Assembly: GCF_030252345.1 (NCBI RefSeq)
Contig: NZ_CP126980.1
Span: 829,501 to 893,500 of the forward strand
DNA: 64,000 nt
Source of the DNA: Actinoplanes oblitus
GTDB lineage: Bacteria; Actinomycetota; Actinomycetes; Mycobacteriales; Micromonosporaceae
Direction: 5' to 3'
The position numbers were made by a program, and so were the translations under genes. Position 1 is the stretch's first letter, and each line of letters opens with the position of its first letter. Positions 25,007 to 37,752 of this stretch are shown in pieces. The notes below the pieces were generated by a model. It made no database searches and was not told where the DNA came from. It worked only from the letters and a program-made list of their open reading frames with translations.

Positions 25007-25089
25007 GCCCGGGTGGTGGAATGGCAGACACGGCCGCCTTAAAAGCGGCTGCCCTCACAGGCGTGCGGGTTCGAGACCCGCCCCGGGCA
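25007..25089 (+). tRNA. tRNA-Leu (UAA)
   Basis: An 83-nt class II tRNA. Acceptor arms GCCCGGG (25007-25013) and CCCGGGC (25082-25088) pair fully with A as discriminator. The anticodon stem GCCGC/GCGGC encloses loop CTTAAAA with anticodon TAA at 25040-25042. A long variable arm (TGCCCTCACAGGCGT) and the T-loop TTCGAGA are present. CCA is not encoded. Confidence 0.97.
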
Positions 25090-35594: not shown

Positions 35595-36488
35595 TCAGCG
35601 CCGCCCAGGAAACGGAACGCGCAACAGATCCTCAGCGACGGTGATCGGCCCGTCGAACTCCTTGCGGGCCTCCTCCAGGAACCGGGACGGGTCCGGATAG
35701 CGCTGGGAGAAATGGGTCAGCACCACGTGCCGCACCCCGCACTCCCGGGCCACCGCCGCCGCCTGCCCGGCCGTCAGATGCCCCACCTGCGCCGCCATCC
35801 CGGCGTCCTCGGCCAGGAACGTCGACTCGATGACCAGCAGGTCCACTCCCTGCGCCAGGGCGTAGACGTTGTCGCACAGGCCGGTGTCCATCACGAACGC
35901 CATGCTCTGCCCGGGGCGCTCCGTGCTCACCTGTTCCAGGGTCACCGCGCCGGCCCGGCCGGTCCGCTGCAGCTCGCCGACGGCCGGCCCGCTGATCCCG
36001 TGCGCGGCCAGCAGCTCCGGCACCATCCGGCGGGAGTCCGGCTCGGTGAGGCGGTACCCGTACGTCTCGATGGAATGACGCAGGGGCAGCGCCGTGAGGC
36101 GCCCGGCGGACGTCTCCGCGACGAACGCCGCGCCCACCGGCGACGGCACGATGTCGGCATTGTCCCAGTAACTGGTGGCGTGCCGGAGACGGTGGTAGAA
36201 CTCCTGGCCGCCGGCCGGATAGTGCACCGAGACCGGATGCGGCACCCGGTCCAGCGAGATGCGCTGCAGGATGCCGGGCAGGCCGAGGCTGTGGTCGCCG
36301 TGGAAGTGGGTGACGCAGATCCGGGTGATCGGGGTGACCGGCAGGCCGGCCAGCAGCAGCTGCCGCTGGGTGCCCTCGCCGGGGTCGAACAGGATCACCT
36401 CGTCGTCGAAGCGGAGCAGGTAACCGTTGTGGTTGCGGTGACGGGTCGGCACCTGGCTGGCCGTGCCCAGCACGATCAGCTCACGCAT
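35595..36488 (-). CDS. rnz: Ribonuclease Z
   Basis: Endonuclease that cuts the 3' trailer from tRNA precursors to allow CCA addition. 297 residues of the metallo-beta-lactamase fold with the zinc motif [13 protein letters not shown] near residue 62, a [10 protein letters not shown] loop typical of RNase Z, the exosite region, and the later metal ligands in FVMDTG and LTHFSQRY. The start ATG 36488 gives the standard MRELIVLG beginning. The 310-bp leader holds a strong nested stem-loop (36610-36701). The tRNA in this window lacks an encoded CCA, so this enzyme is needed for its maturation. Confidence 0.95.
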
Positions 36489-36533
36489 CGTGTAGTTCGC
36501 GCATCGAGCGCCCCCGGTCGGAAAATGAAGCGA

Positions 36534-36606
36534 CCCCCGGGGACTTCCATGCTCTCCGCGTTGACGAAGATCATGGTCCGGTCGGACAAGGCCGGATCCC
36601 CGGGGG
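36534..36606. repeat. Inverted repeat in the rnz leader
   Basis: cccccgggga (36534-36543) and tccccggggg (36597-36606) are perfectly complementary. The loop of 53 nt contains ttgacgaagatcatgg. It lies between the nested stem-loop and the rnz start. Confidence 0.65.
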
Positions 36607-36609
36607 CCG

Positions 36610-36701
36610 GGTGGCTGTCTGGTACTCGCCGGGCCGCTGCCACACGGTCTCGACGCATTCAAAACGAAGCTGTCAAGGACAGCGGCTAGCGGACAGCCAC
36701 C
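36610..36701 (-). ncRNA. Candidate structured RNA (nested stem-loop)
   Basis: The two ends pair over 10 bp (36610-36619 with 36692-36701). Inside, 36633-36641 pairs with 36677-36686 (9 bp, one bulged A). Inside that, 36652-36660 pairs with 36666-36674 (8 bp, two bulges) around the loop aaaac. The strand is uncertain; minus is preferred because a TATAGC -10-like box lies at 36716-36721 and rnz follows. On that strand a GTG-started ten-codon frame (36705-36673) overlaps the first arm. Not recognised as a known RNA family. Confidence 0.5.
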
Positions 36702-36715
36702 TCACGAGTCCCGTT

Positions 36716-36721
36716 GCTATA
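36716..36721 (-). promoter_or_regulatory. Candidate -10 box upstream of the structured RNA
   Basis: TATAGC on the minus strand, preceded by TTG. Transcription would begin near 36709, eight bases before the first stem arm. No good -35 hexamer is seen. Confidence 0.3.
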
Positions 36722-36798
36722 CAACTTCGGACCACCTCCCTTCACGTGTACGGCCACGTTAACCAGCCACGGCCGCCCGCGCCAACGGTTTTGAATCA

Positions 36799-37752
36799 CT
36801 AGAGACGCGGGAATACCCGCGGGCCGGAGTCGGTGTACTCCACCACCAGCGAGGCCGGGCCGACGATCAGCGGGTCGGGGCGGCCGACCACCTCCTCGTC
36901 CTTCCCGGCGTACTCGAAGCGGCTCAGCACGTGCCGCATCGCCTCCAGCCGGGCGCGTTTCTTGTCGTTGCTCTTCACCACGGTCCACGGCGCGTCGGCG
37001 GTGTCGGTGTAGAAGAACATCGCCTCCTTCGCCTCGGTGTAGTCATCCCATTTGTCGAGGGACTCCAGGTCCATCGGCGAGAGCTTCCACTGCCGGACCG
37101 GGTCGACCTGGCGGATGGCGAAGCGGGTGTGCTGCTCCTTCTGGGTCACCGAGAACCAGAACTTGACCAGCTTGATGCCCGAGTTGACCAGCATCCGCTC
37201 CAGTTCCGGGGTCTGCCTGAGGAACTCCAGGTACTCCTTGCGGGTGCAGAAGCCCATCACCCGCTCCACGCCGGCCCGGTTGTACCAGGACCGGTCGAAG
37301 AGCACGATCTCACCGGCGGACGGCAGGTGCTTGATGTAGCGCTGGTAGTACCACTGCGTGCTCTCCCGCTGGTTCGGTTTCTCCAGCGCCACCACGGAGG
37401 CGCCGCGCGGGTTGAGGTGCTCCATGAAGCGCTTGATGGTGCCGCCCTTGCCGGCGGCGTCCCGGCCCTCGAAGAGGATCACCAGGCGCTCCCCGGTGTC
37501 CTTGCACCAGTTCTGCAGCTTCAGCAGCTCGATCTGGAGCAGCCGTTTGTGGTGGTCGTACTGCGCGCGGGACAACCGGTCGTCGTACGGGTAGTCCTCC
37601 CGCCACGTGTCCACCGGGGTGCCGTCCGCGTTCAGCAGACGCGGGTCATCGTCCTCGTCGTCGACCACGCGGTACCCGGTCAGCTCGGCGATCGGCCCCG
37701 CGTAGGGGTGGGTGATCGCCTCTTCGTACTCAGAGTCGACTTCAGTGCTCAT
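36799..37752 (-). CDS. ppk2: Polyphosphate kinase 2
   Basis: Transfers phosphate between polyphosphate and nucleotides (usually GTP or ATP synthesis from polyphosphate). 317 residues with Walker A EGRDAAGKGGTIKRF, the Walker B region EIVLFDRSWYNRAGVE and the lid region VTQKEQHTRF. This is the one-domain class I PPK2 length. It lies four bases after a CYTH-CHAD gene on the same strand, so they form an operon; CHAD domains bind polyphosphate, which links their roles. Confidence 0.95.
   Translation of the reverse strand: MSTEVDSEYEEAITHPYAGPIAELTGYRVVDDEDDDPRLLNADGTPVDTWREDYPYDDRLSRAQYDHHKRLLQIELLKLQNWCKDTGERLVILFEGRDAAGKGGTIKRFMEHLNPRGASVVALEKPNQRESTQWYYQRYIKHLPSAGEIVLFDRSWYNRAGVERVMGFCTRKEYLEFLRQTPELERMLVNSGIKLVKFWFSVTQKEQHTRFAIRQVDPVRQWKLSPMDLESLDKWDDYTEAKEAMFFYTDTADAPWTVVKSNDKKRARLEAMRHVLSRFEYAGKDEEVVGRPDPLIVGPASLVVEYTDSGPRVFPRL

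Follow-up and report, generated by a model that had tools for sequence, protein, structure and literature searches.

Comparative analysis indicated that the gap between ppk2 and rnz in our window, the whole stretch of 64,000 nucleotides analysed, carries Ms_IGR-5, a stand-alone RNA gene that could function as a mini-mRNA engaging ribosomes, either as a 30S trap or as a translation sensor. We give this ribosome-engaging reading as a whole a probability of about 0.5, and any single output of the RNA a much lower one. Comparison of homologous sequences demonstrated a complement to the 16S rRNA tail, the conservation of start, stop and frame of a short ORF, and the helices P1, P3, P4 and P5. Ms_IGR-5 is already catalogued and has been detected as an RNA in mycobacteria and Streptomyces; what the comparison newly points to is the 16S-tail complement, the mini-ORF, and the helices P1 and P3 together with a probable pseudoknot, which use codons of the ORF.

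The RNA gene, its surroundings and its range

An all-Rfam scan revealed that the minus strand at window positions 36749-36525 is a full-length match to RF02471 (Ms_IGR-5; 102.2 bits, cut-off 45; E 7.4e-22; model positions 1-184 of 184). A family does fit, although the original prediction knew of none, and its extent of 36610-36701 was too short. RF02471 was the sole family between 36300 and 36900 in an Rfam scan up to E 1; no known riboswitch aptamer family matched there, contrary to the suggested riboswitch-type leader, and no Ms1/6S, tmRNA or tRNA family matched at the place of Ms_IGR-5. The locus is arranged as follows.

36799-37752, minus strand: ppk2, polyphosphate kinase 2 (NCBIfam TIGR03707, 381.7 bits), upstream of the RNA
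36780-36785, minus strand: -35-like TTGGCG (TTG in other loci)
36756-36761, minus strand: -10-like TAACGT, a short distance ahead of the conserved ACAC 5′ end (TANNNT in other loci)
36525-36749, minus strand: whole RNA gene, 225 nt (match to Rfam RF02471, Ms_IGR-5)
35595-36488, minus strand: rnz, ribonuclease Z (NCBIfam NF000805, 487.8 bits), 36 nt downstream of the RNA

The RNA is thus flanked by the genes for RNase Z and PPK2; a third protein near it had no NCBIfam match. In 57 loci, about half of which belong to one genus, TANNNT was found 4-9 nt before the RNA in every case (57/57; shuffled mean, 2.9) and TTG at a spacing of 16-20 nt in 52 (0.18 when shuffled), and a consensus promoter scan of the window made no call for these boxes. 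The TATAGC proposed earlier as a -10 box is indeed present on the minus strand, but it falls within codons 2-3 of the conserved mini-ORF and was rejected as a promoter element. Several features of the surroundings were noted in passing: an extra ATG upstream of the rnz start opens a short overlapping frame (36481-36504, by eye); a tRNA gene lies on the plus strand of the window at 25007-25089; another tRNA gene closely follows the RNA on the same strand in five loci of the short-ORF lineages (L337, L350, L352, L354 and L094); and in many mycobacterial loci (L131, L132, L153, L194 and others) a co-directional gene precedes the RNA by about 47 nt and the gene downstream is often convergent, an arrangement that presumably resembles the Rv0812-Rv0813c gap of M. 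tuberculosis.

The prediction that the minus strand encodes a structured small RNA was borne out by the full-length family match and by the folding energies: -51.3 kcal/mol for the minus strand against -39.8 ± 3.8 for shuffled sequences (z, -3.05; equalled by 2 of 200 shuffles), with a weaker fold on the plus strand (z, -1.93; 12 of 200). The nested arms described earlier are present, with 10 bp between minus-strand positions 36701-36692 and 36619-36610 (GGUGGCUGUC/GACAGCCACC) and further arms inside, and the second 10-bp inverted repeat (36606-36597 with 36543-36534) corresponds to the terminator-like stem of Ms_IGR-5. The outer arms covary among relatives, the conservation that the prediction had proposed as its check, and the inner arms are almost invariant in the genus and family and therefore give no covariation signal.

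RF02471 was found in 55 of 60 genomes, with one match each, including our genome and each of the other 35 from its genus. Across 396 genomes of the phylum, the Rfam model matched 70 at E 0.001, 35 of them over the cut-off, whereas R1, a 72-position model of the 5′ domain, matched 180 at E 0.01 (113 of 237 genera) and about 151 at E 0.001 by a hand count of the table. The weakest R1 hits are less sure; three of the weaker ones (L362, L364 and L365; E 3e-4 to 5e-4) kept the site with ATA as the only start. Under strict filters, 216 of the 396 genomes had no R1 match, including all five listed from one family of the same class (f22), which suggests that Ms_IGR-5 is dispensable where it is absent. 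A plasmid search with the window sequence returned one match, to a Nocardia replicon, and a phage search returned none.

M. smegmatis is the source of IGR-5 (Li et al. 2013, as named in the available part of PMC10454040). In the portions of the sources accessible to us, Ms_IGR-5 was confirmed by RNA-seq in S. lividans (PMC8079986), listed as an sRNA unit in S. avermitilis (PMC8780764) and, in both M. abscessus and M. smegmatis, covered by ribosome footprints (PMC4974804), the last with its authors' warning that footprints on many ncRNAs do not necessarily mean translation. No function, ORF or 16S pairing was found for Ms_IGR-5 in the mostly open-access, partly available literature, and a word search of the accessible text of PMC8539372, PMC8388888, PMC11077062, PMC5521070, PMC4633059, PMC2864571 and PMC8628891 did not find Ms_IGR-5.

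The 16S rRNA tail complement, the mini-ORF and the helices

The elements within the RNA, in 5′-to-3′ order of their first base on the minus strand, are the following.

36745-36748, minus strand: P1 5′ strand, CACG (covariation)
36729-36744, minus strand: SD1, complementary to the 3′ tail of 16S rRNA (a run of 15 pairs in the window)
36686-36724, minus strand: mini-ORF of 12 codons, TTG (36724) to TAG (36686), starting 10 nt after GGAGG
36708-36711, minus strand: 5′ strand of the probable pseudoknot, GGAC, codons 5-6 (moderate)
36703-36706, minus strand: P1 3′ strand, CGTG, spanning codon 7 and base 1 of codon 8 (covariation)
36697-36703, minus strand: SD2, GAGGTGG, inside the ORF, with 11 nt from the end of AGG to the stop codon
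36692-36701, minus strand: P3 5′ strand, the first arm of the original prediction, within the ORF (covariation)
36669-36683, minus strand: small terminator-like hairpin just past the stop codon (seen on a scan)
36610-36619, minus strand: P3 3′ strand, GACAGCCACC (covariation)
36597-36606, minus strand: P4 5′ strand, terminator-like stem (covariation)
36577-36596, minus strand: P5 hairpin with a conserved apical GUCC loop (covariation)
36584-36587, minus strand: 3′ strand of the probable pseudoknot, GUCC in the P5 loop (moderate)
36534-36543, minus strand: P4 3′ strand (covariation)

The 5′ end of Ms_IGR-5 (36744-36729) is complementary to the 16S tail GGAUCACCUCCUUUCU over 15 contiguous bases, with a duplex energy of -27.1 kcal/mol. 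Part of the 16S 3′ tail is unpaired in the ribosome; in our genome, the 16S genes at three places end in GGATCACCTCCTTTCT, which we take to be the mature end. Among 42 genes of the window, for which the 25 nt upstream of the best of up to six candidate starts were considered, the longest run of pairs with the tail was 9 and the best duplex -18.0 kcal/mol. Of the 117 Rfam-model homologues, 116 have at least 15 contiguous pairs (15 or 16), as do 78 of the 79 members with a site in a held-out set of 80 fetched R1 hits, none of which had been used in building R1, for a total of 194 of 196; the remaining held-out member, L366, has no site and was left out of this count. The 29 distinct site sequences revealed 16S-compatible changes, with A or G opposite U, C or T opposite G, and no change opposite A or C, L043 being the sole exception; this comparison covered 197 sequences, of which 80 were selected by a pattern fixing GGAGGTGGTCC and are uninformative at those positions. 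The outermost base of the complement is free and was unpaired in 8 of the 29. Requiring the motif GG[AG]GGTG to locate the site removed none of the other 117 sequences, but both models favour this 5′ sequence. A loose pattern, RRGGRGGTGRTYY, occurred at 16 sites in the 9.8-Mb genome compared with 6 for the reversed control; three of the 16 are antisense to 16S genes, one is Ms_IGR-5, and most of the other 12 looked coding-like by eye.

Downstream of SD1, the start codon of the homologues lies 7-13 nt past GGAGG and is often weak, and the frame runs over 10-19 codons. When a stop was sought 8-14 nt after the AGG of an SD-like AGGT[GA], it was found in 194 of 197 homologues, at 11 nt (175), 10 nt (17) or 13 nt (2) past the AGG of SD2. 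The parsed sequences comprise 116 of 117 from the Rfam model (L112 unparsed) and 78 of 80 held-out ones (L361 and L366 unparsed; E 5.8e-5 and 1.1e-4, respectively), L001 having been dropped as a duplicate of L025 and of the window. In the 116, a canonical start stood in frame with the stop in 95 and only a near-cognate in-frame start in 21; canonical starts were distributed 97/2/3 over the three frames relative to the stop, and the stops were TAG (99), TGA (12) and TAA (5). The 78 held-out sequences gave the same kinds of counts: 64 with a canonical in-frame start, 14 with a near-cognate one only, canonical starts 64/0/5 by frame, and TAG/TGA/TAA 61/16/1. The 35 of 194 sequences with near-cognate starts only (CTG, ATC, ATT, ATA, ACG) are individually weak evidence for an ORF, and they may mean either that weak initiation is wanted or that the RNA is untranslated in some lineages. 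A short ORF overlapping the first arm had been predicted, and such an overlap exists, but the ten-codon GTG frame named for it (36705-36673) is in another frame than the ORF kept in relatives and was rejected.

The helices were compared with shuffled alignments, in which relatedness is left in place, and the covariation figures are accordingly not probabilities. For P1 (RNA bases 2-5) in 52 sequences, 97.6% of the cells were paired (70.7% when shuffled) and 48 cells carried double changes, compared with 10.2 when shuffled. P1, P3, P4, P5 and the pseudoknot, taken together in 32 sequences of the wider group, had 91.5% paired cells and a covariation of 0.351, against 0.186 for shuffled and at most 0.098 for slid alignments. 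The pseudoknot between the GGAC of the ORF and the P5 loop is probable, and the evidence for it is moderate by itself: its covariation was 0.148 compared with 0.107 ± 0.017 (7 of 500 shuffles reached this score), and its double-change pairs were no better than shuffled ones (434 of 500 shuffles reached their number). Over 78 distinct combinations, its mean helix score was 5.26 compared with 4.58 ± 0.09 after swapping of loops (0 of 300), a count that retained a few wrong automatic P5 loops and left out L085, L094 and L098, which have no loop; GUCG/CGAC exchanges were observed in distant lineages. In 74 of 112 start-bearing rows, the pseudoknot begins about 13 nt past the start codon, at the distance where the mRNA entry of a ribosome would lie. 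Two further pairings were discarded: P2, between the GUCC of SD1 and the GGAC of the ORF, showed no covariation, and the SD/ORF helix drawn in Rfam relies on bases that have other partners in P3. Ms_IGR-5 contains two copies each of GCTGTC and GACAGC, so that the corresponding pairings compete.

Alternative readings of the conserved features

Ms_IGR-5 might be an ordinary trans-acting sRNA whose C-rich stretches (CACCC, GGCCCCCG) pair with the SD regions of target mRNAs, the ORF serving only to tune stability. The C-rich stretches beside P3 and P4 are kept in the wider group, and the promoter-like boxes and the terminator-like stem would suit such an RNA. We nevertheless regard this explanation as unlikely, since it leaves the 15-16-nt complement to 16S rRNA, the conservation of start, stop and frame, and the spacing of SD2 unexplained, and by eye the 3′ half seems to differ much more from lineage to lineage than the 5′ domain does.

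That the 12-residue peptide is the active product of a dual-function RNA is quite improbable. All 80 loci assigned to named organisms contain a 12-codon ORF with T-[RCS]-E-V-A in the middle of its product, although the DNA pattern used to choose these loci already dictates part of the ORF, and 19 of the 80 have an additional out-of-frame start. Codon 7 changes together with its P1 partner, and the ORF varies from 10 to 19 codons in length. In 19 of the 194 parsed homologues, SD2 is read in another frame, which yields unrelated peptides (e.g., MLKTSGGDCS, MSESGSTGSGGASG and MDNLPSWRCDRTGGGVSR) while the start and stop are kept. We regard this change of frame with retention of start and stop as the strongest indication that translation terminating at that place is selected, and not the peptide; selection seems to act on translation, and the peptide is probably a by-product.

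An assembly aid, in which the RNA would pair with the 16S tail while the 30S subunit matures and be displaced afterwards, with the ORF as the release mechanism, appears about as improbable as the active peptide. It would account for the match of the complement to the 16S 3′ end as read in our own genome, although nothing specific to precursor rRNA was seen.

The original prediction had proposed a cis-acting leader or attenuator of rnz, which we now consider very unlikely and reject as a general function of the family, the linkage to rnz having been seen only in the genus and family. In the window rnz lies on the same strand 36 nt downstream, and it is downstream in all 25 same-genus loci, that of the window included, as well as in L044 of the same family, and in 5 of the 80 named loci, all from Micromonosporaceae (5 of the 9 named loci of that family). 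A terminator-like hairpin directly past the ORF stop in Micromonosporaceae would also fit a leader; of the 19 aligned rows from the genus and family, 18 share the same stem and L044 deviates at its last base, and in a test of terminator/antiterminator pairing it was almost invariant and hence without covariation. In contrast, no rnz was seen in 31 other loci, for which the flanks spanned at most 1.5 kb (with almost no downstream sequence for L041), or in 71 named loci outside Micromonosporaceae, and the RNA and its ORF are still conserved in these other families. When the closest downstream ORF was sought up to 300 nt away in 85 loci outside the genus and family, it was convergent in 51 and co-directional in 25; 6 had none, and in 3 it lay farther off. 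The corresponding numbers for the 71 named loci were 32, 28, 7 and 4. A simple GC3 rule, applied to the downstream sequence only, was used to call all of these neighbours. Co-directional neighbours are frequent, yet a fixed neighbour was not found. The sizeable co-directional share weakens the argument from orientation, and the lack of a fixed neighbour stands; the linkage to rnz may be a local add-on.

Least probable of all, and no more than a remote possibility, is an ordinary SD-hiding switch in which SD1 is kept mainly for pairing with an internal anti-SD: tail-like copies occur in some distant homologues (GGACCACCTCC in L056, GGATCACCTCC in L093; also L069, L072 and L060), with which SD1 could pair in cis in some lineages, but 25 of 116 sequences reached a shuffle fraction of at most 0.1, compared with about 12 expected by chance, and the window did not (0.24).

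Proposed mechanism and comparison with known systems

If Ms_IGR-5 is a mini-mRNA that engages ribosomes, its over-long SD1 would capture a 30S subunit, which would then meet the pseudoknot at its mRNA entry and hesitate. Continued translation would strip P1, the pseudoknot and P3, and SD2 would hold the terminating ribosome at the stop codon, giving two states of the RNA that are set by translation initiation. Under poor initiation, the RNA might hold 30S or 70S particles as a ribosome trap or hibernation aid; an alternative output would be the exposure of the C-rich 3′ strand GACAGCCACCC, reporting translation status. Such an RNA would count or park ribosomes via the 16S tail, with selection on the act of translation and not on the peptide. 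A catalogued sRNA for which no function was found in print would thereby gain a testable mechanism across the phylum. The analysis also revises the family structure and extends the detected range in the same 396 genomes from 70 with the Rfam model at E 0.001 to 180 with R1 at E 0.01 (about 151 at E 0.001).

Among known systems, tmRNA is likewise a ribosome-engaging RNA with a short ORF; unlike tmRNA, the ORF of Ms_IGR-5 has its own SD and start codon, and the RNA matches no tmRNA family. In leader-peptide attenuators and uORFs, too, translating a short ORF would rearrange a structured RNA, whereas no conserved downstream gene was found for Ms_IGR-5. RNAs of the Ms1/6S type are stand-alone actinobacterial RNAs of similar size; Ms1, however, binds the RNA polymerase core and has been searched for beside HAD hydrolase genes, according to the accessible part of PMC9130861. 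An Ms1/6S identity was rejected on the lack of an Rfam match and on the neighbours, RNase Z and PPK2 in place of a HAD hydrolase. The window RNA belongs with RF02471 by a full-length covariance match far above the cut-off, but the printed structure of that family differs from ours in that part of the SD is paired with the ORF and both P1 and the pseudoknot are missing.

A parallel in layout is CC2171 (Rfam RF01867), an alphaproteobacterial sRNA from Caulobacter, the consensus of which has the same complement, GAAAGGAGGUGAUCC, near its 5′ end, followed by GUG; the printed consensus contains GAAAGGAGGUGAUCCAGUG. A 5′ complement to the 16S tail followed by a short ORF is thus common to both RNAs, and they differ in phylum, peptide and helices. 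Below its threshold, the CC2171 model matched seven of 20 distant homologues, coinciding with them in place and strand (at most 30.2 bits, against a cut-off of 75), and it had no match at the place of Ms_IGR-5 in the window. The same model scored 17.7-23.2 bits at three unrelated places in our own genome and, up to E 1, matched 6 of 14 control genomes, with one match over the cut-off. By score, the weaker ones among the seven are no better than chance, because unrelated places score alike; what is shared is the place. Seven hits on alphaproteobacterial plasmids were examined of 19 records listed, from a query that itself contained the letters of the complement. In five of them (two from Methylobacterium and one each from Azospirillum ramasamyi, Sphingobium and Skermanella), 15-16 bases pair with the tail, GGAGG is followed 7 nt later by GTG or ATG, and the ORFs of 24-26 codons begin with MSHC. 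At the other two, which are Azospirillum plasmid loci (L377 and L378, about 500-700), ORFs of 57 and 59 codons that start with MSHG and look secreted by eye share the extended SD and ATGTCTCAT with CC2171-type RNAs, which may connect RNAs of this type with genes for small proteins.

The resemblance of Ms_IGR-5 to CC2171 appears to lie mostly in the complement and a 3′ stem, a shared feature and not proof of homology. We tentatively propose, as a possibility and not as our expectation, that the two represent branches or separate inventions of one unrecognised multi-phylum class, distinguished by a clamp on the whole 16S tail, a throw-away mini-ORF, an SD2 at the stop codon and a mechanical switch. 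Such a class would constitute an RNA-based counterpart of ribosome hibernation or of 30S-availability sensing.
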